From positions 1 to 41,419 of the IMG/VR virus record IMGVR_UViG_3300037808_001199: a stretch of 41,419 nt of DNA. One strand, written 5' to 3'. Of the stretch, positions 11,594 through 41,419 are shown piece after piece. The stretch's first letter is position 1; every line of letters starts with the position of its first letter. The stretch comes from a virus. The translations under genes and the position numbers were made by a program. The notes beneath the pieces were generated by a model. The model searched no databases, was not told where the DNA came from, and saw only the letters and a list, made by a program, of their open reading frames with translations.

Positions 11594-14500
11594 ATGTCTG
11601 TAAAGAAATTTAAGTTCGTCTCACCCGGTGTGTTTCTTAGTGAGATTGATAAAAGTCAAATCCCAGCTACACCAGGCGGAGTCGGTCCAGTAATAATTGG
11701 TCGGTCACAACGTGGCCCAGCCCTCAAACCTGTAAAGGTCAACTCATTCCAAGAATTCACAGAAATATTTGGAGAACCTATTCCAGGTGGCAGATCTCCG
11801 CGCGGTGACGTCTGGAGAGATGGGAATGGATTTATTGCACCGACTTATGGTGCATATGCTGCACAGGCATATCTTAAAGCTAAAATCGATTCACCGGTAA
11901 CTTTTATTAGATTAGCCGGAATCTCAGGCGACGACTCAAGTGAGACTGGCAAAGCAGGCTGGGCCGCAAGACGAGCCTTCGGCATTTGGGGGACAAACAT
12001 TCCCGTTACCCCGGATGCCGCTTCAACGGCTAACTGTTCTTTATTGGGGATAATTTACTCCACAGGCTCCGCATTCGTGCCTGGTGTGAATGGCGTAAAG
12101 GCCGCCGACGCCAGCGCCGAGGCTGGTAAAGATAATCTTTATAACAAAGCCAACGGTGAGCATGTTCCTGTCAAGATCGATGCTGAGGGCAAATTTAAAA
12201 TTCTTATAAAAGTTGATACTGGCGAAACGATTGAAAAACAAGTCTCATTCCGTGCCGGCGAAAAACATATTAGAAACGTCTTGAATACTAATCCAGTAAA
12301 TACGAACACTGGCGTCACATCCACCGGATTGCAGGATTATTACAACCACTATTGGCTTGGCGAAACTTTTGAAGAAGAATATGAAAATCTAGTAAAAACA
12401 AAAGTAACCACCGCAGGCGCCGCCACAATGGAATCAACCTGCGTCTTTATAACTAGAATGGATGACGCGATGGCTGACAGAAAGTCAGATCAGCATGAAC
12501 TTGAGCACTCTAGCGCCCCTTGGGTCATTCCACAGTACAATGGCACCTTCGGGGCCGCCAAAGCAACTGATTTAGCTGCAGGTGCAGAAAGGCTATTTAG
12601 AATACACAGTATACAGGAAGGAGAACAATCCTTGGACATGTATATAGAGGTTCAAAATATTAAAATTGCAGACCCAGCAGCCATCAGTCCTTACGGCCGA
12701 TTTGATGTTGTTGTAAAGCAGGTAGTAAACGACTCGATCATAGTTCTAGACAATTTTGAAAACCTTAATTTAAACCCCAATTCAGAAGACTATATAGCAA
12801 ACAGAATAGGTAACCAGTATTTTAAGTGGGACATAAAGCAGAAAAGAAATAGGATCTATGGAGATTATGCCAATAAATCTAGTTTTATAAGAGTAGAAAT
12901 GAATCCTTCTTTCGCAGGAAAAGGACCCAGTGACAAAACAGCTGTCCCTTTTGGTTACCTCGGGCCCGTTATACCAAAGAAGCTTTCTTATTCGCCGGCT
13001 GACAACGGAAAGGTGTTTAAGAACACCGCCGGCGCCACACCCACCTGGCCCATCGACAGCGACGCTGCAGAAGCTGAAGGCGTTCTTTTCCACGGCGGCC
13101 TCGACACGGTGGTTTTCAACTGGCCAACACCACCAACTGTTCAAACGGGCTCTACAAACCCAAGCCAAGGAAACGGCGAATACGTGTTTGGCGCAACACC
13201 CTACAACCTCAGCCGCGACGGAGATAAATACGCGCAAAATTTCCAGTCAGTAAACGACGGCTTGAGAGATTATTATAGAATACTTGCAGATTATTCGACT
13301 TTGACAGCACAGCAGCAGTCCGGCCTCGCCGGCGCCAGCACTCAGCATGCATACATCTTTTCTTTGGATGATGTTGTTATTACTGGTGCGACAGATCCCG
13401 GAACGGACATTTCAAGTTATGATCTAGATAGGGCTGTATGGGTTTCAGGCTCATCCCAGACCGCGGGCACCGCACCGGCGCCGTCGACGAATCACTCTTA
13501 CACCCATAACGTTGCTCGAACAGGCCACACAGCCGCCGGTCTTCTCGATGTTGTCCGGTCTTTCGCTCTGCCGCTCGCAGGTGGTAGCGACGGAGTTAAT
13601 ATAACCGAAGCTGATCCTTTTAATATGTCCATTCGGTCTAATTGTGTGGGCCCAGATGCCACCACAGCTAATAGCTACGCTTATGCCTCTATCGATAGGG
13701 CAATTGAGATGGTTAAGAGTCCTGAAATGGTAGAGATGAAGCTGGCTACAATGCCCGGTATCTCCAACAAGAATCTTACTGCAAAGTTAATTCAAACTTG
13801 TGAAGCCCGAGCTGACGCACTAGCTATTGTTGATCTTCCAAACATTTATAAGCCAGAATCGGAAGCTTATGCCCCTAATTTCGAATCCCGCGTCGACGGC
13901 ACCACTCCAAGCCTGTCTGCCAAGGCTCTTATACAGAGACGAATAAACTCTTCTTATGGGTGCGCATACTACCCATGGGTGCAGATAAGAGACACAATAG
14001 ATGGAAGTCCAGTTTGGGTACCACCTTCTGTCGTAGCCCTAGGTGCTATGGCTTACACAGAGCAGCGAGATGAAGTCTGGTTTGCGCCAGCTGGATTCAA
14101 CCGCGGAGGCCTGAATGAGGGCAACGCTGGTGTGCCTGTTCTGCAGGTATCAGAACAGCTTCTTTCTCGAGACCGAGATGTCTTGTATGATGCGAATATT
14201 AACCCAATCGCTTCGTTCGTATCGGAAGGGATTGTAATTTTTGGTCAAAAGACGCTCCAAAGCACCAAATCGGCTCTTGATCGAATAAACGTTAGACGCT
14301 TATTGATTTTCGTCAAAAAGGAAGTTTCAAGAATCTCTAACTCTCTATTGTTTGATAATAACCTTCCAGCAACATGGAACAGGTTTAAGAGTTTGGTTGT
14401 CCCAATGCTTGAAAGTGTGCAAACTAGATTGGGCCTAGCTGATTTCAAGGTTGTCCTAGACGAGACCACGACAACACCTGATCTTGTCGATAGAAACATA

Positions 14501-14596
14501 ATGTATGCTAAGATTTTTCTGAAGCCTGCAAGAGCAATAGAGTTTATTGCAGTTGATTTTGTTATAACACGTTCAGGTGCCTCTTTTGACGATTAA
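11594..14596 (+). CDS. g18: Contractile tail sheath protein, T4 gp18-like
   Basis: A 1000-residue sheath subunit that forms the contracting outer tube of the tail. The N-terminus has the family start KFVSPGVFLSEIDKSQIPAT followed by GPVIIGRSQRGPALKPVKV and FQEFTEIFGEP. The conserved C-terminal core includes YYPWVQIRDTIDGSPVWVPP, APAGFNRGG, LYDANINPI, VIFGQKTLQ and RRLLIFVKKEVSR, which are the interlocking sheath strands and helices. T4 gp18 is 659 residues; the extra length lies in central variable surface domains (about residues 120-650), rich in GAT/Gly and probably exposed. The start has AAGGAG 12 nt upstream. Next comes the tube gene in the same operon. Identification is very sure. Confidence 0.95.
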   Translation: MSVKKFKFVSPGVFLSEIDKSQIPATPGGVGPVIIGRSQRGPALKPVKVNSFQEFTEIFGEPIPGGRSPRGDVWRDGNGFIAPTYGAYAAQAYLKAKIDSPVTFIRLAGISGDDSSETGKAGWAARRAFGIWGTNIPVTPDAASTANCSLLGIIYSTGSAFVPGVNGVKAADASAEAGKDNLYNKANGEHVPVKIDAEGKFKILIKVDTGETIEKQVSFRAGEKHIRNVLNTNPVNTNTGVTSTGLQDYYNHYWLGETFEEEYENLVKTKVTTAGAATMESTCVFITRMDDAMADRKSDQHELEHSSAPWVIPQYNGTFGAAKATDLAAGAERLFRIHSIQEGEQSLDMYIEVQNIKIADPAAISPYGRFDVVVKQVVNDSIIVLDNFENLNLNPNSEDYIANRIGNQYFKWDIKQKRNRIYGDYANKSSFIRVEMNPSFAGKGPSDKTAVPFGYLGPVIPKKLSYSPADNGKVFKNTAGATPTWPIDSDAAEAEGVLFHGGLDTVVFNWPTPPTVQTGSTNPSQGNGEYVFGATPYNLSRDGDKYAQNFQSVNDGLRDYYRILADYSTLTAQQQSGLAGASTQHAYIFSLDDVVITGATDPGTDISSYDLDRAVWVSGSSQTAGTAPAPSTNHSYTHNVARTGHTAAGLLDVVRSFALPLAGGSDGVNITEADPFNMSIRSNCVGPDATTANSYAYASIDRAIEMVKSPEMVEMKLATMPGISNKNLTAKLIQTCEARADALAIVDLPNIYKPESEAYAPNFESRVDGTTPSLSAKALIQRRINSSYGCAYYPWVQIRDTIDGSPVWVPPSVVALGAMAYTEQRDEVWFAPAGFNRGGLNEGNAGVPVLQVSEQLLSRDRDVLYDANINPIASFVSEGIVIFGQKTLQSTKSALDRINVRRLLIFVKKEVSRISNSLLFDNNLPATWNRFKSLVVPMLESVQTRLGLADFKVVLDETTTTPDLVDRNIMYAKIFLKPARAIEFIAVDFVITRSGASFDD

Positions 14597-30850: not shown

Positions 30851-32713
30851 ATGGAGCTATCAAATAAGATCTTATCAGAGATTACAGTACACATGAAGTA
30901 TGCCCGCTATTTAGATGATGAGCAAAGAAGAGAGACGTGGGAGGAACTAGTAACGCGAAATATGAACATGCACCTTAAGAGGTCCCCTCAGTTAGAACTT
31001 CAGATAAGAAAAGCTTATAAGATGGTTCGTGATAAGAAGGTGCTCCCCTCGATGCGCTCGATGCAGTTCGGCGGAAAGCCAATTGAAGTTGCACCTAATC
31101 GTATCTTTAATTGTGCCTTTATGCCCATAGACGATTGGCGCTCCTTCGGCGAGGCGATGTTTCTGCTTTTGGGTGGAACTGGCGTTGGCTACAGCGTGCA
31201 GACGCACCACGTCGAGAAACTCCCTGAGATTACCAAACCCAACCCCAAGAGGACACGTCGATTCCTAGTAAATGACTCCATCGAAGGCTGGGCTGATGCT
31301 GTAAAGGCACTCGTCCGAAGTTATTTCAATGGTGGCTCTAAGTTAAGATTCGACTTTTCTGATATTAGGCCAAAAGGCGCCGCGCTTATTACAAGTGGCG
31401 GCAAAGCTCCAGGCCCACAACCTCTTCGTGAGTGCCTTGTTAAACTGGAGGGCATGTTAAGCGAGAAGGATAATGGGGATAAACTGTCCTCTATTGAGGT
31501 TCACGATATGATTTGTTATATCGCTGATGCAGTTCTAGCTGGTGGTATCCGCAGAGCAGCACTGATCTCACTATTCTCAGCTGACGACCAAGAGATGATC
31601 TCCGCCAAGACTGGTGATTGGTGGGAGAAGAACCCACAACGAGGTAGAGCGAACAACTCTGTTGTACTACTCCGCCATAAGATCGACAAGGAATACTTTA
31701 TGGATCTTTGGGATAGGGTAAAGGCGTCTGGAGCAGGTGAACCAGGGTTTTATTTTTCGAACGATAAGGATTGGGGAACAAACCCTTGCTGCGAGATCGG
31801 CCTGAGACCTTATCAGTTCTGCAATCTAACAGAGGTCAACGTATCGAATGTTGAAAGCCAAGAAGATTTAGAGAACCGAGTAAGGGCTGGGGCTTTCATT
31901 GGAACTCTCCAGGCTAGTTATACAGATTTTCACTATCTCCGTGACGTCTGGAGAAGGACAACAGAGAAAGACGCCTTAATCGGTGTGTCGATGACTGGCA
32001 TTGCCTCAAACGCAGTATTACAACTTGACATGAAAGCGGCAGCACGAGCCGTTAAAGAAGAGAATGCAAAAACAGCTGAGATTATCGGTATCAAGCCCGC
32101 AGCACGAACCACTTGCGTGAAGCCGGCCGGCACTACTAGCTTAACCCTAGGGACTAGCTCTGGCATCCACGCTTGGCACAATGATTATTATATCAGAAGA
32201 CTTAGAGTGGGCAAAAATGAGGCAATCTATTCTTACTTGCTAGAGAACCACCCAGAGTTGGTTGAGGACGAGTATTTTAACCCTCACACCACTGCCGTCA
32301 TTTCTATTCCGCAAAAGGCACCCGAAGGTTCAATTATGAGAACTGAATCGGCGCTTCAATTGCTGAAGCGAGTCAAGCTAGTAACTGATGAGTGGGTAAA
32401 ACCTGGATTCCGTAAAGGGCAGAATACGCACAATATATCCGCGACAATTTCAATCAAAGATGCGGAGTGGGTTGATGTAGGGGAATGGATGTGGGAGAAC
32501 AGGACAAGTTACAATGGCTTATCCGTGCTTCCATATGACGGGGGGACGTACACCCAAGCACCCTTTGAAGATTGCTCGAAAGAGACTTATGACGTAATGA
32601 TGGACTCTTTAACCAGTATCGATTTAACTAAAGTTACAGAAGCTGAAGACAACACTGACCTTAAGAGCGAAGCTGCTTGTGCCGGCGGCGCCTGCGAAAT
32701 AAAATTTGTTTAA
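30851..32713 (+). CDS. nrdJ: Adenosylcobalamin-dependent (class II) ribonucleotide reductase
   Basis: A 620-residue monomer-type enzyme that makes deoxynucleotides using vitamin B12. Like the Lactobacillus leichmannii enzyme (739 residues) it has an N-terminal active-site Cys (C88 in NRIFNCAFMP), the NPCCEIGLRPYQFC motif with radical Cys C313 and its partner C324 (same 11-residue spacing as C408/C419), and the C-terminal re-reduction pair C610/C615 in CAGGACEIKFV (same 5-residue spacing). No small subunit is needed. The GGAG ribosome site overlaps the end of the helicase gene, so the two are co-expressed. Activity would depend on host cobalamin and a thioredoxin/glutaredoxin. Identification is sure. 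Confidence 0.93.
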   Translation: MELSNKILSEITVHMKYARYLDDEQRRETWEELVTRNMNMHLKRSPQLELQIRKAYKMVRDKKVLPSMRSMQFGGKPIEVAPNRIFNCAFMPIDDWRSFGEAMFLLLGGTGVGYSVQTHHVEKLPEITKPNPKRTRRFLVNDSIEGWADAVKALVRSYFNGGSKLRFDFSDIRPKGAALITSGGKAPGPQPLRECLVKLEGMLSEKDNGDKLSSIEVHDMICYIADAVLAGGIRRAALISLFSADDQEMISAKTGDWWEKNPQRGRANNSVVLLRHKIDKEYFMDLWDRVKASGAGEPGFYFSNDKDWGTNPCCEIGLRPYQFCNLTEVNVSNVESQEDLENRVRAGAFIGTLQASYTDFHYLRDVWRRTTEKDALIGVSMTGIASNAVLQLDMKAAARAVKEENAKTAEIIGIKPAARTTCVKPAGTTSLTLGTSSGIHAWHNDYYIRRLRVGKNEAIYSYLLENHPELVEDEYFNPHTTAVISIPQKAPEGSIMRTESALQLLKRVKLVTDEWVKPGFRKGQNTHNISATISIKDAEWVDVGEWMWENRTSYNGLSVLPYDGGTYTQAPFEDCSKETYDVMMDSLTSIDLTKVTEAEDNTDLKSEAACAGGACEIKFV

Positions 32714-32718
32714 AACGC

Positions 32719-32747
32719 TTGACAAATTTGATAAAATATAATATTAT
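32719..32747 (+). promoter_or_regulatory. Sigma-70 promoter before gene at 32780
   Basis: A perfect -35 TTGACA (32719-32724), a 17-nt AT-rich spacer and TATTAT (32742-32747) form a strong host-type promoter just after the reductase stop. A TATAAT also occurs at 32748-32753 with a less suitable spacing. It drives the GroES-like, ThyX and lipoprotein operon. Confidence 0.75.
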
Positions 32748-32779
32748 TATAATACAACTCAACAAAAAAGGAAAAAACA

Positions 32780-33052
32780 ATGAGTTTCAATCAAGACGAC
32801 AAACTTTTAACAACTGAAGAGCATATTTCTAACTATGTTAGGGAATTCGCTGCCATCGAGGACGCCATGGAGCCATTTAAGGAACAGCGCAGAGATCTGA
32901 GAGAATCATATGATGATAATGGCTGGCTCTCTAAAGAAGAAATGAGACTAGCAGTGAAGGCTTACAGACTGGTAAAGTCAGATACAGACATGGAACAACT
33001 AACAGAGTACTTCAACAAACTTAAGAGAACAGTGAGGAGCATCAATGTCTAG
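32780..33052 (+). CDS. Small charged helical protein
   Basis: A 90-residue protein, about half charged residues, predicted entirely helical: FAAIEDAMEPFKEQRRDLRE, then SYDDNGWLSKEEMRLAVKAY. This helix-turn (K/R-x-x-L-x-E-x-Y-x-x-x-G-W-L-S-K-x-E) recalls GapR/DUF2312-type nucleoid proteins, which are also small charged helical dimers, but the match is loose. It is the first gene after a strong promoter and has AAAAGGAAAAA upstream. It overlaps the GroES-like gene by 8 nt. The function is unknown. Confidence 0.75.
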   Translation: MSFNQDDKLLTTEEHISNYVREFAAIEDAMEPFKEQRRDLRESYDDNGWLSKEEMRLAVKAYRLVKSDTDMEQLTEYFNKLKRTVRSINV

Positions 33053-33365
33053 AATTCCCCCAATCCTAAAACCAGTAAATCGCCATTTAACGATCATACC
33101 TCACGTTAAAAAAAATGAAACCAACACTGGTGTATTAGTGCCAGACGATTTTGAAATGGAGGAAGACAGATACATTCCAGCTACAGTTCTTGACATCGCA
33201 AAAGATTGCTCACCTGAGATACAGATGCTCAGAGCCTCTGACTCACCTAGGCAGGTCATCGTCCAGCGCGCCATGGTCGAGGAAGTCTCTGTAGGCGATA
33301 AATCATATTATGTAATATTAGAAAATTACGTTATAGGCTTTCTGCGAGGGCCGAATGAAGCTTGA
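33045..33365 (+). CDS. GroES-like co-chaperonin
   Basis: A 106-residue protein with the GroES beta-barrel plan: ILKPVNRHLTIIPHVKK (GroES IRPLxDRVhVK), a mobile-loop-like NETNTGVLVPDD, PATVLDIAKDC (GroES GxVhAVG) and VGDKSYYVILENYVIGFL (VGDxVLF ... Y). Phages such as T4 (gp31) encode their own co-chaperonin so that host GroEL can fold the capsid protein; the same role is likely for the gp23-like protein here. It lies in an operon with overlaps on both sides (8 nt before, 11 nt after) and a GAGGAG ribosome site. The sequence is divergent, so the fold is likely but not certain. Confidence 0.6.
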   Translation: MSRIPPILKPVNRHLTIIPHVKKNETNTGVLVPDDFEMEEDRYIPATVLDIAKDCSPEIQMLRASDSPRQVIVQRAMVEEVSVGDKSYYVILENYVIGFLRGPNEA

Positions 33366-34059
33366 ATTGTTTGATGACGGAATTGGCTCTGTTGACTACG
33401 TTGCACACATGGGCGATGATTTAACAATTGTTAACGCTGCTCGCGTTTCTTTCGGAGCAGAAAAGGATGACCTAGATGAAAAAGATATTAAACTTATTAA
33501 CTACCTCATGGAGCACAATCACACTAGCCCATTTGAGCATTGTTCTATTACAATGCGTTTTATTGTTCCTCTATTCATAAGGTCCCAACACCATAGACAC
33601 AGGACCTGGGCTTACAACGAAATCAGCCGCAGGTATACCAGTGTGGGTATGAAATTTTATAACCCAGTTAAATTTAGGACACAACACAAGAGCAACCGCC
33701 AAGCTAGTCTAGACGAACTAATTGACCCGACTCTGGATTCATCTTACCTTGGGATAGGGTTCGAGAAGGCTTCTGCTGCAGTGTCCAACCACAACACGCG
33801 AAGCATCAACTTGTATACCGCGATGATGGAAGCTGGAGTATGTAGAGAACAGGCAAGAGGTGTCCTGCCACAAAACTTATATACAGAGTATTATGGAACA
33901 GTGAACTTGCATAATTTATTAAAGTTTGTCTCTTTGCGTATCCACGCTGGTGCTCAATGGGAGATCCAGCAAGTTGCAAAGGCTTGCTTAAGGATAGCAA
34001 AACACAAATTTCCCTATGCCACAGCGGCATTTATCAAAAAACATAACATGGACTTATAA
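33355..34059 (+). CDS. thyX: Flavin-dependent thymidylate synthase ThyX
   Basis: A 234-residue enzyme that methylates dUMP to dTMP using FAD, NADPH and methylene-tetrahydrofolate. The ThyX signature RHRx7S is intact at residues 81-91 (RHRTWAYNEIS, followed by RRY). HNHTSPFEHCSITMRFIVPL near 54-72 and EAGVCREQARGVLPQNLYTE, which contains the nucleotide-binding REQARxxLP, also match the family. With NrdJ it supplies dNTPs. The start overlaps the GroES-like gene by 11 nt. Identification is sure. Confidence 0.95.
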   Translation: MKLELFDDGIGSVDYVAHMGDDLTIVNAARVSFGAEKDDLDEKDIKLINYLMEHNHTSPFEHCSITMRFIVPLFIRSQHHRHRTWAYNEISRRYTSVGMKFYNPVKFRTQHKSNRQASLDELIDPTLDSSYLGIGFEKASAAVSNHNTRSINLYTAMMEAGVCREQARGVLPQNLYTEYYGTVNLHNLLKFVSLRIHAGAQWEIQQVAKACLRIAKHKFPYATAAFIKKHNMDL

Positions 34060-34060
34060 A

Positions 34061-36280
34061 ATGAAAAGATTATTATTTATTATACTTTTTTTTGGTTGCA
34101 GCGATGAAACAGCCGTGACCAACTTTGAACAACCTTCCGATGGCGGCCGCCTAGCTGTGTCGGACTCTGGAGTTGACCAGTCAGTGCCTGACTCAAACGT
34201 CCCGCTTCTTAACTGGGATGCTTCCATTGATGCTGGCCCACCAGATGCAATGGTAACTCGATGTGACACAGTGACAGTGGAGGACCATGAGGCTTATTGC
34301 AGCTGCCTGCCTGATTGTTGCGAGGTGCAAGAGTGGTTCTGTCCACCACAACCAGATAACACCATACAGTCTATGCAGGTTACTATAGAGGTTTGTAATC
34401 CGGCCGGAGAGGCTTGTGAGTTTGGTCCAGATCCAGACTGTCCACCCCCACAGATTATTAATCGGAGCGAGTGTCAGGTGACCCACGAGTGTCCCCCCGG
34501 TTCTTCGCGCGATTTTTTACGCTGGTTCGAGTGCCAATTGGCAGATGGGCGCACAGGCAGGCAAAGGGTGTTATGTGATAAGGGGCAGATAATCCATGGC
34601 CCATGCACTTCTTGTGAAGATCCGGAAATATGTGATGGCATAGATAATGATTGCGATGAGCGCATCGATGAGAACCCAATAGTCTGTGAGGACGAATGCG
34701 GCCCGGGCGTCGGCCTGTGTGTTGGTGGTGTATTGATAGATTGTGTCAACCGCGAGCCGCAAGAAGAGGTATGTAATTTTATCGATGACGATTGCGATGG
34801 CAACATCGACGAAGGTCAGCGAAATGTATGTAACGAATGCGGCGAGGTACCTCCGGAGATTTGTGATGGGGTTGATAACGATTGCGACGAATTAACGGAT
34901 GAAGGTCTGATCAGAGAGTGCGAAACTCCCTGCGAGAGAGGAGTGGAGAGCTGCATCGCTGCCCAGTGGGTCTCTTGTACCGCGCGCCCCCCATCGGACG
35001 AAGAGTGTGATGGCTTAGACAATGACTGCGATGGGATCCCAGACGAGGGTATCAACTGCTTGTGCACAATTGATCAAGTCGACGCGCTGTTTCCCTGCGC
35101 AGAAGAACCCTTATTCTGTGGTCAAGGGTTTAAGACTTGTTATTGTCAAGATATTGATTGCACCGTGATTGCAATGAGTCCGTGTATGGCTCTATGTGCA
35201 TTCCTGCCCCTGGATCAGGGCGAAGAATGCAACCCCGGGATTGGTAGACCAATACAAGAGGAAGTCTGCAACAACTTTGACGAAGACTGCGACGACATTT
35301 TAGACGAAAACTTAACACGCGCATGCTATTCTGGCCCAAGAGATACATTAGGGACAGGTATATGTCTGCCCGGTGAACAGTCCTGCTTCGAGGGCCGCTG
35401 GGGCGGACCGAATAACGATGGTGACTGGACTGTCAACTTGTGTGAAGGTGAGGTGGTACCAATGGAGGAGGTTTGCAACGGGTCGGATGATGACTGCGAT
35501 GGAAATGTCGACTACGGTGAAGAAGTAAGAGACACCGACATCTTGCTTGTTCTAGACACTAGTGGATCCATGACAGGGGAAATCAGAGCAGTGACTCAGG
35601 CCCTGTCTCGTTTTGGCCAACACTTTGCAGCAGAACAGGCAATCCGATGGGGCCTTATTGTTGGCCCAACGAGGACAACGGACCCTGCGCATCCACGCTC
35701 AGAACTAGAAGTTTTGACGATGGTCTCAAATATATCAATGTTCCCTCAGTTTTTTGCAGACTTTGTAGCCCTAGACCCAGCCGAATTCGATGGCGGTCTT
35801 GAGATGCATATGGACGCAGTAATGTTAGCCCTGAGAAACCTGGCGCCCTTGCATGTCGACTTTCAAAACAGGCGATGGGTGCAGGGCGTTATGTCTATCC
35901 CGGATATTGGAGGGTTCTTTCTTAACTGGAGACAGGAGACTGACCGCATTATCATAGTATTTACAGACGAAGACGAACAATCGTATATGAATCCGGAATT
36001 TAGATCACCCGAGTTAACAGCAGCGCTTCAGGCGGCCCCAAATACAAAGTTGTACACCTTTGCACTAGCCTTTTACGGTTGGGACGAAATTGCAATTGCA
36101 GGTGGCGGCCGCAACTTTGATTTATCATCGCGAGCAGATGAAATGTATAACAACTTGATGTCTATTATAGACGAGATCTGCCTACCTAGAGAGCAAGACC
36201 AAGGAGCCCTTAACATGAGCCAGCTCAGGTATCTTCCCGCAAGCTATGAACCGCAAGCTCCTGTTCTGATGTGTTACTAG
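34061..36280 (+). CDS. Putative lipoprotein with MopE-type repeats and vWA domain
   Basis: A 739-residue secreted-looking protein. The N-terminus MKRLLFIILFFGCSDE is a short lipoprotein-type signal with Cys13 as the likely lipidated residue (lipobox FFGC is imperfect). An Asp/Pro-rich spacer with DASIDAGPPDAM follows, then Cys-rich segments and six copies of the MopE-type metal-binding motif (CDGxDNDCDGxxDEG) at about residues 188, 236, 263, 312, 400 and 468. A vWA domain runs from about 491 to 710 with an intact MIDAS: DTSGSM near 497 and TDEDEQ near 635. Such proteins are surface lipoproteins of Myxococcota and relatives. It starts 1 nt after ThyX and overlaps the next gene, so it is built into a phage operon. 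Uses could include adhesion, superinfection exclusion or a virion surface role. Confidence 0.8.
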   Translation: MKRLLFIILFFGCSDETAVTNFEQPSDGGRLAVSDSGVDQSVPDSNVPLLNWDASIDAGPPDAMVTRCDTVTVEDHEAYCSCLPDCCEVQEWFCPPQPDNTIQSMQVTIEVCNPAGEACEFGPDPDCPPPQIINRSECQVTHECPPGSSRDFLRWFECQLADGRTGRQRVLCDKGQIIHGPCTSCEDPEICDGIDNDCDERIDENPIVCEDECGPGVGLCVGGVLIDCVNREPQEEVCNFIDDDCDGNIDEGQRNVCNECGEVPPEICDGVDNDCDELTDEGLIRECETPCERGVESCIAAQWVSCTARPPSDEECDGLDNDCDGIPDEGINCLCTIDQVDALFPCAEEPLFCGQGFKTCYCQDIDCTVIAMSPCMALCAFLPLDQGEECNPGIGRPIQEEVCNNFDEDCDDILDENLTRACYSGPRDTLGTGICLPGEQSCFEGRWGGPNNDGDWTVNLCEGEVVPMEEVCNGSDDDCDGNVDYGEEVRDTDILLVLDTSGSMTGEIRAVTQALSRFGQHFAAEQAIRWGLIVGPTRTTDPAHPRSELEVLTMVSNISMFPQFFADFVALDPAEFDGGLEMHMDAVMLALRNLAPLHVDFQNRRWVQGVMSIPDIGGFFLNWRQETDRIIIVFTDEDEQSYMNPEFRSPELTAALQAAPNTKLYTFALAFYGWDEIAIAGGGRNFDLSSRADEMYNNLMSIIDEICLPREQDQGALNMSQLRYLPASYEPQAPVLMCY

Positions 36281-37062
36281 AGAAAGTAGTCCTGGGTCAT
36301 TCCGTTGAATCTGCAATGTTTGCATACCTCAATGGTTACTACCATGTTCAGACCTCAAGTTTTTACCCTTTGTTTTTTAAGGAATTTCAAGAGTTTAGAC
36401 TTTTTGGTACTAGAAACAAAAAGCAAATTTGGCAGAAAATCAAATTACATTTAGGCTTGCTAGCTCTTGGCATTGATTATGCGGAAGTCAAGCAGGTCCG
36501 AGTCGCGGATAACAACATTAAAATTTTTAGTGATAATCTCCTGGCTCAATTTGAGTTTGAGCAGTGCTTTATATTTGAGACCCTCAATATAAAGCACGAG
36601 AACGCCTTATCTGGCACGCACGCAGAAGAGTATGAGGTTATAGATGATTTCACAATACAACGCCTAGGAAAGCAAGCGAAGCACATCAACCCGGTTTACA
36701 CTGAAGACAGATTATTGTCAGAGATTTACTTCTATAACTCCCTGAGGGTCGATGGCGCTAAACATATCACCGATATAGTTACGGTGTCACAACTGACAAG
36801 AGATCAGTTATATGACTTTGATTATTCAGATACAATAGCCAACTTCAAACTAAAGAGTCATCTCAACTCTATGGGTTACATCGGCCTAAAAGAGAAAGGT
36901 AAGTATAAGAATGGTACTGATATATATAAAAAGTTGATCACGTCGCATCTCTCGCGCTATGTCCACCCGATCGATCAAAACACTTACAGCAATTCTAAGA
37001 AAGTAAAGTTTATGAATATGAGCATGCAGGAAATAATAGATGGATACAGCCCTAAAAGGTAG
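36271..37062 (+). CDS. Conserved-type phage protein, unknown function
   Basis: A 263-residue protein beginning VVLGHSVESAMFAYLNGYYH after a short leader, then FRLFGTRNKKQIWQKIKLHL, a region ENALSGTHAEEYEVIDDF, RVDGAKHITDIVTVSQLTRD and DYSDTIANFKLKSHLNSMG. I recall similar unnamed proteins in aquatic phages, but none with a known function. GTG 36271 overlaps the lipoprotein stop by 10 nt and lacks an obvious ribosome site; ATG 36316 is an alternative. It overlaps the following nucleotidyltransferase-like gene by 23 nt, so the two are probably made together. The alternation of strands and helices suggests an alpha/beta fold. Function unknown. Confidence 0.7.
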   Translation: MLLEKVVLGHSVESAMFAYLNGYYHVQTSSFYPLFFKEFQEFRLFGTRNKKQIWQKIKLHLGLLALGIDYAEVKQVRVADNNIKIFSDNLLAQFEFEQCFIFETLNIKHENALSGTHAEEYEVIDDFTIQRLGKQAKHINPVYTEDRLLSEIYFYNSLRVDGAKHITDIVTVSQLTRDQLYDFDYSDTIANFKLKSHLNSMGYIGLKEKGKYKNGTDIYKKLITSHLSRYVHPIDQNTYSNSKKVKFMNMSMQEIIDGYSPKR

Positions 37063-37888
37063 AAACCTAGCAGGAATCGTTCCGATTGCTGGTCGGCAAG
37101 ATCTCTTGGGTCTACCCTGGCCAGACTGTTTACACCCTCTTGCCAAAGATATGTTAGCAATCGAAAGAGCTGTGTACGAGTGCGCACTGGTGAACTGCGA
37201 TTCTATATGGGTCATATGCAACGACGACACTGCACCTTTAATAAAGAAGAGGCTAGGGGATTATGTTATAAACCCCAACATATATGACAACTGGGACTTC
37301 AAAAGGCATCCTGATTCCTGCAAGGAGTATATACCGATATTTTATACACCAATTCTACAAAAGCATAGAAAAAGAGTCGACACTGTGGGGTGGTCAGTTC
37401 TTCACGGCGCCTTAACCTCTTTTATAGTCTCTAAAAAAATCTCAAAATGGACAGTGCCAACGAGCTATTATGTATCCTTTCCGTACGGCATATATGACCC
37501 ATCGGCGCTAAAGAAAGTTCGGTCTGCAATCCGAGGCGCAGAGAGAGTGTATGCCAGCTACAATGGCAAGACAGTCCGCGACGGCTTATATCTACCTTTT
37601 AGTTTCACACCTGAGTGTTGGTTACATTTCCGCCGTCAACTCAACGAAACCAACACAGGCGGAGATAAAAATTTACCACTTGAAGAAAGATGGTCGGCAA
37701 AGAATTTTTCACTTGACAAAATCTTTAAACATGATAAGATAGATATAGATAAAAAAGTCGAATTGGAATTTTACCATAATTTAGATTCATGGGAAAGTCT
37801 AAGAGAATTTTATATTTCAAACAAAAAGCTGAAAAAGATGCCCCCGTCAATGGCAAAACCATTTTTCATAAGAAAGGAAGACAGATGA
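37040..37888 (+). CDS. Putative nucleotidyltransferase / GT-A-fold protein
   Basis: A 282-residue protein. The start GIVPIAGRQDLLGLPWPDCL (residues 12-31) then HPLAKDMLAIERAVYECALV and SIWVICNDDTAPLIKKRLGD resemble sugar-nucleotidyltransferases (GT-A fold), where a P-x-A-G(x)-x-x-x-h-h strand-loop binds NTP, an aligned P-L-x-x-x-x-x-L helix follows and a CNDD element coordinates metal. The usual G-x-G-x-R nucleotide loop is changed to AGRQD. A SYYVSFPYG segment and a Trp/Phe-rich PECWLHFRRQL lie further on. The neighbour at 36271 may be a partner. It could modify sugars on DNA or a surface; that is inference. ATG 37040 has AGGAA upstream. Confidence 0.5.
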   Translation: MDTALKGRNLAGIVPIAGRQDLLGLPWPDCLHPLAKDMLAIERAVYECALVNCDSIWVICNDDTAPLIKKRLGDYVINPNIYDNWDFKRHPDSCKEYIPIFYTPILQKHRKRVDTVGWSVLHGALTSFIVSKKISKWTVPTSYYVSFPYGIYDPSALKKVRSAIRGAERVYASYNGKTVRDGLYLPFSFTPECWLHFRRQLNETNTGGDKNLPLEERWSAKNFSLDKIFKHDKIDIDKKVELEFYHNLDSWESLREFYISNKKLKKMPPSMAKPFFIRKEDR

Positions 37889-38112
37889 TCGATATTGAAG
37901 AAGCATACGACAACTTAGCTTACCACACGAAGGAGTCAGCCACGCTGCCGCTGACATTTTCCTCAATGACAATAGACCAGCAGTTCTTTTTCCGTGACCT
38001 ATACGACTCGATCGTGTATGATATAGAAGAAAAAGAAAAACTAATTGAAGATCTTGAAATGATTAAATCTGACTTGGAGTGCACAATTGCAAGCGTCAAA
38101 AAACAAAACTAA
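37885..38112 (+). CDS. Small coiled-coil protein before dnaE
   Basis: A 75-residue helical protein (YDSIVYDIEEKEKLIEDLEM), acidic in its second half and likely a coiled coil. The ATG 37885 overlaps the previous stop (ATGA) and has AGAAAGGAAG upstream; the longer form from 37789 lies inside the previous gene and is rejected. Its final 26 nt contain the TTG start of dnaE, so the two are translationally coupled. It could be a small partner of the polymerase. No family is recognised. Confidence 0.65.
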   Translation: MIDIEEAYDNLAYHTKESATLPLTFSSMTIDQQFFFRDLYDSIVYDIEEKEKLIEDLEMIKSDLECTIASVKKQN

Positions 38113-41100
38113 TATTCCTTTCGTAGGGTTGCATGCCCATTCTGTGGCAGGATCCCCATTCGATGCATTAGGGTATCCGGCAGAACATATGGATTTTGCA
38201 TTTAACAACGGAATGGATGCCCTCGCTCTTACCGACCATGGCAACGCTAATGGTCTGGCGGGACAGGTATTGCACGCCAAAAAGATGCAGAAAGAAGGTA
38301 AGAACTTTAAGCCTATCTTTGGCGTAGAAGCTTACTTTATCCCTTCCGTTGCAAACTGGAAGAAGGATTATGAAAACATTAAAGCTTCTGCCAAGAACAA
38401 ATCAGAATATGAGGCAGCCAGTTCGGGCACAACGGTAGAGAACGAGGCATCAAAGAAGAAGATGAAGTCGGTTCTAAACCGTCGCCGCCATATGATTCTC
38501 CTGGCACAAGACCAAGAAGGGTTGCAAAATATCTTCAAGATGATATCTTCTAGTTATGCTGGCAATAACTTCTACCGCTATCCTCGTGTAGACTACGCAC
38601 TACTCAAGAAGTACAACAAAGGTGTCATTGCAGCATCAGCTTGTCTTGGTGGTGTTTATGCTGGAAGTTATTGGGAAAATAGAGAAAACGGCGCCGACGC
38701 AGTTCTAGATGCAATGAGAGAGACTACTCAAAAAATGCAGAAGATCTTCGGAGACAGGTGGTACGGAGAGTTGCAGTGGAATAACATCCCAGAACAACAC
38801 GAACTAAACCAATACATTATACAAATGCATTATGAGTTTGGTATTGAGTTGATCTCGACCGCGGATTCTCATTACTATAACCCGGAAGTGTGGAAGGACA
38901 GGGAACTTTACAAGCGCTTGGGGTGGCTCGGCCGAGGAAGACCGGACTATCTATCAGAAGAGTTGCCAGTCTCCGTCGAAGAAGTAGGCTATGAGCTGTA
39001 TCCAAAGAATGGTCAGCAGATGTGGGAGTCTTACAAGAAGTATTCTAAGTCAGCTAATGTTGAATACGATGATGATATTGTTATGGACTCTATCACTCGA
39101 ACACACAAGATCGCCCACGAGCGTATCGAGGCTTTTCTTCCAGACAACCAAGTTAGGCTTCCGAGCTTTGTCGTCCCTGAGGGTTCCACCGCTGGACAGA
39201 CACTCGCAGCGCTTTGCGTTGAAGGTGCCCGCAGTTTGGGACTAGCAGAGAATACCGAATATGCAGATCGACTTAAGTATGAAGTAGGGATCATCGAATC
39301 CCGCGGTTTCTCGAAGTACTTCTTGACTATGAAAGCGATTGCTGATATGGCTGTAGAGCGCCAGCTCGTCGGTCCCGGCCGCGGCTCTGCCGCCGGCTCT
39401 TTGGTGTCCTATGTCCTGGGGATCACACAAGTCGACCCAATCAAGTATGGTCTTCAGTTCGAAAGGTTCTTGACCAAGGGTGGCACAGGGTATCCTGATA
39501 TTGATTACGATGTATCTGACCCGATGCTTCTCAAGGAGTTCTTGATTGATGAGTGGGGCGACGACACTGTTGTCCCAATTACAAACTGGAACACCCTTCA
39601 GCTTCGATCATTGATCAAGGACATCTCAAAGTTTTACGGCATTGAGTTTACCGAGGTAAATAATGTGACCAGTAAGATGGTGTATGAGGCGACACCACTT
39701 GCAAAGAAAGCACACGGTATTACAGCCGGCGTGTATGCACCAACCTTTGAAGAACTGATGATGTATTCAGAAACCCTTCAAAAGTTCTTGCAGAAATATC
39801 CACATATCAAGACACACGTCGAAAAGCTCTATGGTCAAACCCGTTCAGCTAGTCGCCACGCAGGTGGTGTTGTTGTCGGTGAGCGACTTAATGAGTGGAT
39901 GCCTCTTATTAACAGTGGAGGGGTCAGGCAGACCCCGTGGAGTGAAGGGCAAAATGTTAGACACCTTGAACCAATGGGTTTTATCAAGTTCGATATTCTT
40001 GGGCTGGCTTCTCTTCGAATGGTCGAAGGTGCTGTCGAGCGCATTCTAAAGAGACATCACAATATCGAGAACCCAACCTTTGACCAAATTAGGTCATTCT
40101 ATGACGAGCACTTACACCCAGATAAGATCGATCTAGAGAACGAAGAAGTGTGGAAGAATGTATTCCACGCAGGCAAGTGGGCTGGTATCTTCCAGTTCAC
40201 GGAAGCTGGAGCACAGTCATTCTGCAAGAATGCAAAGCCAGATAATATTACTGACTTGGCTTCTATTACAAGTATCTATCGTCCCGGTCCACTAAGCGCC
40301 GGCGTAGACAAAATGTTCATCGGCTCAAAGCAGGCGCCTCACGAGGTAGAGTATCTTAATGAGACTACTCGCGAAGTGACAGAAGAGACATACGGCTTCC
40401 TTATCTTTCAGGAACAGATCGCTATGCTTGCTCACAAGCTGGGTAAGGATCTATCCCTGGATGAAGGCAACAAGCTCAGAAAGCTTTTGACCAAGAAGGG
40501 TACTGGTGCAGCTGCAGCAGAGAAGGATAAGATCTTTGACAAGTTTCACAAGGGTTGCTTGGAGAAGGGCATCGCTTCGCACGACGCCCGAGAACTGTGG
40601 AACAAGTTTGAATACTTTTCAGGATATGGCTTCAACAAGTCTCACGCGGTATCTTACTGCATCCTGTCCTTTCAGTGTGCTTGGCTACTCAACTACTATC
40701 CAGCGGAATGGCTCGCAGCTTTCTTGGATAAGGAGCCCGAGACCCGTAAGGAACGAGCAATCTCCACTGCTAAGTCGATGGGTTATGCAGTCGAGCCCTT
40801 GAACGTCAACACTTCTGGTGTAGTTTGGGAGATCAGCGAGGACAACAAGACTCTTGTTCAGCCACTGACTTCGATCAAGGGTCTAGGTGCAGTAGCAATT
40901 CAGCAGATCATTGATCATCGGCCTTTTAATACAGTCGAAGAGTTTCTTTTCCACGATAAGGTAAAGTATTCCAAGCTGAATAAGAAAGCGCTAGATGCTC
41001 TGTGCCGGGCCCAAGCCCTAACTGATCTGGTCGATGACCGTTTTACTGGTCTTAAGCACTTCTGGTCAGCTGTCTGTGTTGACCGCCCTAGAAAGCTCAA

Positions 41101-41419
41101 GAACCTAGAAGATAATATTACCACATATGCAGGTGAGGGAGACTTCACCGAAGAAGAGAAGCTTGAACACTTGGTGACTTTGACAGGTGTGTTCCCGATT
41201 AGTTCAGTGATTAACGAACACGTCAGAGGTAAGCTAGACGAACTTTACATTCCACCGATCTCGGAGTATGATGCTGAACTCGGTGTAACTTGGTTCATTC
41301 CTAGGGAGTGCAAGCTCAAGAAGTCAAAGAACGGTAAGAATTTCTATGTGGTAAAGGTGATCGATGATAACAACGAGACGAATACCATCCGATGTTGGGG
41401 CGTTGACCCCGATCGCGAT
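38087..41419 (+). CDS. dnaE: DNA polymerase III alpha subunit DnaE (3' partial)
   Basis: The 1111 codons in the window encode a bacterial-type replicative polymerase. PHP domain: LHAHSVAGSPFD (H16, H18), ALTDHGN (D50, H51) and FGVEAY, with metal ligands kept as in enzymes with an active PHP. Polymerase core: GPGRGSAAGSLVSYVLGIT, catalytic Asp471 and Asp473 in YPDIDYD (E. coli D401/D403), SRHAGGVVVGERLNEW, Asp636 in FDILGL (E. coli D555), YRPGPL, FQEQIAMLAHKLGK and FSGYGFNKSHAVSY. The last part enters the helix-hairpin-helix and OB-fold region. The start is TTG 38087, 7 nt after GGAG, inside the previous gene; an upstream in-frame TGA rules out a longer form. No stop codon lies in the window. 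It replaces T4-type gp43 in an otherwise T4-like replisome. Confidence 0.93.
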   Translation, partial: MQASKNKTNIPFVGLHAHSVAGSPFDALGYPAEHMDFAFNNGMDALALTDHGNANGLAGQVLHAKKMQKEGKNFKPIFGVEAYFIPSVANWKKDYENIKASAKNKSEYEAASSGTTVENEASKKKMKSVLNRRRHMILLAQDQEGLQNIFKMISSSYAGNNFYRYPRVDYALLKKYNKGVIAASACLGGVYAGSYWENRENGADAVLDAMRETTQKMQKIFGDRWYGELQWNNIPEQHELNQYIIQMHYEFGIELISTADSHYYNPEVWKDRELYKRLGWLGRGRPDYLSEELPVSVEEVGYELYPKNGQQMWESYKKYSKSANVEYDDDIVMDSITRTHKIAHERIEAFLPDNQVRLPSFVVPEGSTAGQTLAALCVEGARSLGLAENTEYADRLKYEVGIIESRGFSKYFLTMKAIADMAVERQLVGPGRGSAAGSLVSYVLGITQVDPIKYGLQFERFLTKGGTGYPDIDYDVSDPMLLKEFLIDEWGDDTVVPITNWNTLQLRSLIKDISKFYGIEFTEVNNVTSKMVYEATPLAKKAHGITAGVYAPTFEELMMYSETLQKFLQKYPHIKTHVEKLYGQTRSASRHAGGVVVGERLNEWMPLINSGGVRQTPWSEGQNVRHLEPMGFIKFDILGLASLRMVEGAVERILKRHHNIENPTFDQIRSFYDEHLHPDKIDLENEEVWKNVFHAGKWAGIFQFTEAGAQSFCKNAKPDNITDLASITSIYRPGPLSAGVDKMFIGSKQAPHEVEYLNETTREVTEETYGFLIFQEQIAMLAHKLGKDLSLDEGNKLRKLLTKKGTGAAAAEKDKIFDKFHKGCLEKGIASHDARELWNKFEYFSGYGFNKSHAVSYCILSFQCAWLLNYYPAEWLAAFLDKEPETRKERAISTAKSMGYAVEPLNVNTSGVVWEISEDNKTLVQPLTSIKGLGAVAIQQIIDHRPFNTVEEFLFHDKVKYSKLNKKALDALCRAQALTDLVDDRFTGLKHFWSAVCVDRPRKLKNLEDNITTYAGEGDFTEEEKLEHLVTLTGVFPISSVINEHVRGKLDELYIPPISEYDAELGVTWFIPRECKLKKSKNGKNFYVVKVIDDNNETNTIRCWGVDPDRD

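Follow-up and report, generated by a model that had tools for sequence, protein, structure and literature searches.

The LIPO gene and its surroundings

The window, i.e. the whole 41,419-nt stretch of IMG/VR record IMGVR_UViG_3300037808_001199 that was analysed, carries a gene, here called LIPO, encoding a predicted lipoprotein with MopE repeats and a vWA domain (Table 1). This description, proposed in the first-pass annotation, is supported by Pfam, the lipobox and AlphaFold/Foldseek. As had also been noted, the gene is tightly fitted among phage genes: a single base separates it from thyX, and its 3' end overlaps the next gene by 10 nt. An alternative in-frame ATG at 34016, upstream and inside thyX, is a less likely start.

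Table 1. Features of the LIPO gene and its neighbours (window coordinates)
Feature	Position	Strand	Evidence or remark
NrdJ, small ORF and GroES-like co-chaperonin	30851..33365	+	same conserved cluster; co-chaperonin by weak NCBIfam match
ThyX	33355..34059	+	PHROG 85, E = 5e-64
LIPO, 739-aa phage lipoprotein with MopE repeats and vWA domain	34061..36280	+	ATG start, stop at 36280; Pfam, lipobox, 74 IMG/VR loci
Signal peptide and lipobox MKRLLFIILFFG|C, lipidated Cys13, then S-D-E at +2 to +4	34061..34099	+	lipobox kept in 66/66
Low-complexity Asp/Pro-rich linker, aa 14-64	34100..34252	+	poorly conserved; predicted disordered
Cys-rich, strand-rich N-terminal domain, aa 65-190	34253..34630	+	model pLDDT 81.9
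Six MopE (PF11617) repeats, starting at aa 191, 238, 268, 316, 403 and 472, with Cys-rich spacers (region aa 191-486)	34631..35518	+	
vWA domain, aa 487-707, metal site D499, S501, S503, E581, D636	35519..36181	+	site invariant in 48 members; Foldseek
Hypervariable tail, aa 708-739, begins after C707, closes with C738	36182..36277	+	
Conserved ORF, function unknown	36271..37062	+	GTG start at 36271; overlaps LIPO 3' end
ORF of unknown function (37040-37888), small ORF and DnaE-like DNA polymerase	37040..41419	+	close conserved cluster

The gene had been argued not to be a contig artefact, and this holds. The ThyX-LIPO-next-gene neighbourhood was found whole, at 100% identity, on a 190,698-bp contig (G007), and 74 loci in IMG/VR encode LIPO, with identities of 36-100% across the matched part; their contigs are up to 281 kb long. 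Most loci keep the order NrdJ, small ORF, GroES, ThyX, LIPO, two unknown ORFs and PolIII; together, the long contig and this conserved cluster rule out an artefact. At two loci (L010 and L011) NrdJ is present as two separate pieces, possibly owing to an intron or an inserted homing gene.

Lipobox and putative sorting signal

A lipobox was found in all 66 members with a readable N-terminus by pattern and by eye, 64 being assigned by script and two (L047 and L072) by manual choice of the cysteine. Pattern and inspection thus strongly imply that LIPO is a bacterial-type lipoprotein with a predicted export signal and lipid anchor. The residue at +2 after the lipobox cysteine is mostly Ser, Ala, Asn or Thr, and that at +3 is Asp in 52/66 script assignments. 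In Bacteroidota, a polar residue at +2 and acidic residues at +3/+4 form a surface-export signal of lipoproteins (PMC5080379). The LIPO N-terminus resembles this pattern, although the acid at +3 would have no clear meaning if the host lay outside Bacteroidota.

The record with the 190,698-bp contig also encodes a 143-aa thioredoxin-like lipoprotein with a WCGGC motif (L110:3983-4414, minus strand). A search through 17 phage records found relatives of it in 7, two of these matches being weak. This protein could help with disulfide formation in LIPO. In five of the LIPO-bearing phages, none of the five thioredoxin-like lipoproteins has an acid at +3. The contrast with the Asp of LIPO suggests a separate destination for the latter, which may be surface display if the host belongs to Bacteroidota.

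A predicted cysteine-rich stalk with MopE repeats

An AlphaFold model of LIPO, based on an alignment of 48 relatives, reached a pLDDT of 81.5, with values below 50 at residues 11-64. The N-terminal domain that follows this linker gave no Foldseek match in the PDB at E ≤ 0.001 and no PDB profile match below E = 0.1. Beyond it, the six repeats of the pattern C[DN]xxD[NDE]DCD, which had been read directly from the sequence as CDGxDNDCDG-type, proved real: PF11617 matched the protein in six stretches with 66.6 bits against a cut-off of 27 (E = 2.1e-18). Shuffled versions of the protein contained 0.00035 such motifs on average and one at most, ruling out chance repeats. In the profile searches that had been suggested as a check, PF11617 matched all 48 members and the vWA profile 33 of them at E ≤ 0.01. 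The cysteine count is nearly constant (54-56 in one clade, 47-49 in another), which would imply an oxidising compartment.

The vWA domain and its metal site

With 18.7 bits against a cut-off of 23.8, the window protein itself missed PF00092. The AlphaFold model, by contrast, matched many solved vWA/I domains in the PDB by Foldseek, at E values around 1e-6 and target-normalised TM scores of up to 0.68. The metal-site residues are invariant in the 48 aligned members. The domain had been described as carrying an intact MIDAS, which is correct for the vWA fold, the DxSxS motif and D636; the Thr position of the canonical DxSxS...T...D pattern is, however, taken by the equally invariant E581, so that the site follows the integrin-beta-type pattern DxSxS...E...D. 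We take the LIPO residues to be equivalent to Ser121, Ser123, Glu220 and Asp251 of beta3, partly on the basis of the literature. A profile built from the phage vWA domains matched integrin beta-8 weakly among PDB profiles (E = 0.001). Integrin beta chains carry Glu at the MIDAS Thr position, Glu220 in beta3 (PMC3792891). LIPO thus shares a fold and a metal-site pattern with the integrin beta I domain, but contains no other integrin domain, and sequence identity is only about 9-16%. The likeness is one of resemblance, not of homology or descent. Among viral proteins, ORF892 of the Acidianus two-tailed virus and other entries in BFVD also have a vWA domain, though the structural match is weak overall.

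A hypervariable tail on a conserved body

The C-terminal tail diverges much more quickly than the remainder of LIPO. Pairs with 80-90% identity in the body have on average 33% identity in the tail; for L035 and L072 the values are 94% for the body and 29% for the tail. Where dS is unsaturated and measurable, dN/dS is about 0.02-0.08 for the body, while tails reach 0.17-0.68. The body is under strong purifying selection while the tail changes, and such turnover over a constant body is as would be expected for a recognition element. The combination of a nearly constant cysteine number with a hypervariable tail is new here. Divergence along the gene is mosaic in L046/L047 and L048/L051, consistent with recombination.

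The cysteine aligned with C738 is kept in 44 of the 48 members, and the tail is probably closed by a disulfide, as predicted from sequence and model. In the majority of members the next gene has its start codon within the last LIPO codons, an overlap that can explain the Tyr/Phe ending. A C-terminal aromatic residue as a beta-barrel signal was considered and dropped because the (I/M)-C-(Y/F) ending overlaps that start codon in most members. In members without the overlap the penultimate cysteine persists, whereas the aromatic residue does not.

Distribution of LIPO

No match to LIPO was found in INPHARED phages or PHROGs, and neither an isolated phage with LIPO nor a close bacterial homologue was found. 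LIPO is a core protein of an uncultured, mostly marine clade of Far-T4-like phages, not a recently acquired host gene. The earlier remark that such a protein is very unusual in a phage therefore applies to isolates, but not to this clade, where it is a core gene. When the second downstream ORF was used as the query, 80 loci were recovered, 62 with LIPO, 7 truncated upstream and 11 from outer clades without LIPO at that place; in the inner clade, all 62 loci reaching the slot carry the gene. PF11617 was detected in 22/22 phage records tested and 0/14 control genomes; one of the 22 (G304) lacks LIPO at the slot and has a relative elsewhere. The profile was absent from eight further outer-clade records (several of them short) and from Mel-JY01 and immuto. 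A divergent LIPO type with 36-42 cysteines occupies the same place in other phages, and two tandem LIPO-type copies occur in L022 and L171; tandem pairs were located at L171:5005-8195 and L111:5952-10578. Among the viral vWA proteins in BFVD, A0A516KYY5 (E = 3e-19, 24% identity) may be a true shorter relative. A literature search for MopE with phage lipoproteins gave nothing relevant.

In the outer clades the same slot is often taken by other exported proteins, all assigned by eye. L182 has a metalloprotease-like lipoprotein carrying an HExxHxxGxxH-like motif, L184 both a signal-peptide phosphatase-like protein and an exported transglycosylase, L187 a protein resembling a transglycosylase, and L173 and L188 small exported proteins. 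In the rearranged loci L036 and L040/L041, the gene of an exported lytic transglycosylase ends 6-18 bases upstream of LIPO; in L038 and L050 it lies near a membrane HExxH protein, with a small Cys-rich lipoprotein in between in L050. G007 (L102:1298-1603, minus strand) and L050 (L050:7550-7846) each encode a small Cys-rich lipoprotein close to a membrane HExxH protein, the one in L050 ending 4 bases before LIPO.

Host and cellular relatives

MopE-repeat proteins of Myxococcota and relatives (PF11617) share the C[DN]xxDNDCD repeat with LIPO, and some also have a vWA domain, which had been taken as a hint of a Myxococcota host. The hint is not supported. By capsid, sheath and helicase, the nearest isolates are Far-T4 phages, i.e. 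Microcystis phage Mel-JY01, Flavobacterium phage immuto and, by capsid, also RM378 with Rhodothermus as host. Bacteroidetes have been assigned as hosts to some Far-T4-like marine viruses (PMC7198788). Sampling of genomes around the Myxococcota and Oligoflexales matches yielded only weak partial vWA matches (best profile match 6.6e-8); about 300 bacterial genomes were sampled, two group draws having yielded largely the same genomes, which were counted once. A MopE-related protein of Sandaracinus, a bacterial gene, is distant (26.8% identity over 59% of the LIPO query). Recent capture from a bacterium was rejected, no close homologue being present among the matches listed from two narrow-pattern contig scans or in the roughly 300 sampled genomes. 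The only strong cellular match, a MAG contig labelled Halieaceae (L076), was ruled out as host evidence: a fall in GC content near 5.6 kb, from about 65% to 41%, marks it as a chimeric contig that joins bacterial and phage-like segments.

Proposed role in the infected-cell envelope

The first-pass annotation had offered masking of the infected cell, a block to superinfection, calcium-dependent binding and cell bursting. All are possible, and the data favour a role in the envelope. Our leading reading, to which we give a probability of roughly 40%, is that LIPO is a lipid-anchored binder, made rigid by calcium and disulfides and produced during infection, that most likely blocks a receptor and excludes superinfecting phages. 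The host Sec and lipoprotein pathways would export the protein, and its N-terminal cysteine would anchor it in the infected cell's envelope, with the outer membrane as the probable site. From sequence and model, the disordered Asp-rich linker would carry a rigid stalk that contains about 50 cysteines and the six Ca-type MopE loops; at its top would sit the vWA domain with its integrin-beta-like metal site, together with the fast-changing tail. As its gene is clustered with those for nucleotide metabolism and replication, LIPO is probably made early or midway through infection; matches to the T4-type late promoter TATAAATA, considered as a timing clue, were no commoner than chance. The protein may then bind a component of the host envelope, with specificity residing in the tail, the metal site or both, so that the cell would no longer bind or take up further phage.

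Such action would resemble that of T5 Llp and Rtp45, phage lipoproteins that disable a receptor (PMC9586334, PMC12685063). These are likewise phage-encoded and envelope-directed, the likeness to LIPO being one of presumed function: they are small (Rtp45 about 6 kDa), contain neither MopE repeats nor a vWA domain and show no homology to LIPO, which at 739 aa (about 80 kDa) is not a small lipoprotein of the Llp/Cor type. Receptor blocking would agree with the universal lipobox, the near-constant cysteine count, the constant body with its variable tail, and a penultimate cysteine that outlasts the gene overlap. It would also fit the placement with NrdJ, ThyX and PolIII, away from structural genes, the other exported proteins in the sister-clade slot, the exported transglycosylases and small lipoproteins beside rearranged LIPO genes, and a +3 Asp like that of the Bacteroidota export signal. 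Against it, known exclusion lipoproteins of the Llp/Rtp45 type are small and lack a vWA domain, and the hypervariability of the tail could reflect a hot spot of recombination, or relaxed constraint close to where the two genes overlap.

The transglycosylase neighbours in the rearranged phages fit a role in lysis equally well. LIPO might bind outer-membrane or peptidoglycan-associated components and help to open the cell late in infection, a possibility that we consider unlikely but worth serious attention, given also the membrane HExxH protein beside LIPO in L038 and L050, the small lipoprotein beside it in L050, and the transglycosylase (L184) or metalloprotease-like lipoprotein (L182) in the outer-clade slot. 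In most phages, however, the gene sits inside the replication and nucleotide cluster, and no holin or endolysin was recognised adjoining it. The protein has no catalytic domain and, with 48-54 cysteines and six Ca-type loops, would seem to be a durable binder.

Rather less likely is a surface adhesin, in which the integrin-like site would make the infected cell stick to other cells or to particles and so help the phage to spread or the cell to stay hidden. The Glu at the second MIDAS position and the surface-export-like N-terminus would suit this. In the related phage immuto, the ribonucleotide reductase genes are likewise followed by genes for exported proteins, of lectin and cohesin type; yet the surface location is a prediction and the integrin beta-8 match is weak. 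It is improbable that LIPO is a virion component, such as a decoration of the tail tip or capsid, whose likeness to a lipoprotein is only apparent: binding outside the cell would suit MopE and vWA modules, and the hypervariable tip resembles receptor-binding proteins, but the lipobox is kept in all 66 members with a readable N-terminus and the gene lies outside the structural block. Capture of copper or another metal, for the cobalamin-dependent reductase or for general supply, is suggested by the name of PF11617 and by the copper-binding MopE of Methylococcus, and is highly improbable, as that copper site consists of two histidines and a kynurenine (PMC3423442), not of an acidic DxDxD-type repeat.

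If the envelope-binder reading is right, these phages, whose hosts are uncultured and mostly marine bacteria, spend about 2.2 kb on a core binding protein that is directed to the envelope and for which isolated phages have no counterpart. A constant scaffold with a variable tip yields a testable prediction, namely that the tip should follow the phage receptor. More speculatively, and with considerable doubt, the whole clade may display an integrin-like, metal-dependent adhesin on infected cells, whose exchangeable, hypervariable and disulfide-closed tip provides each phage with a matched lock for the host receptor or for neighbouring cells; if true, phages would possess a kind of surface recognition that differs from the small exclusion lipoproteins known to date. 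LIPO is in addition a clean marker for a phage clade without a cultured member.

Further observations

The tail sheath in the window (11594-14596) is 1000 aa long, and PHROG matches cover its C-terminal part only. G007 also encodes a 182-aa exported protein (L109:970-1518, minus strand), which by eye resembles a small outer-membrane beta-barrel; it has no Pfam match, and its relative in only one other record is cut at the end. The phage record that holds L043 encodes an exported protein with a CxxCH haem-type motif (L217:1780-2196). In immuto, the run of exported proteins after the reductase genes spans L214:9935-15868, and one C-terminal region in it resembles a type IX secretion sorting domain.
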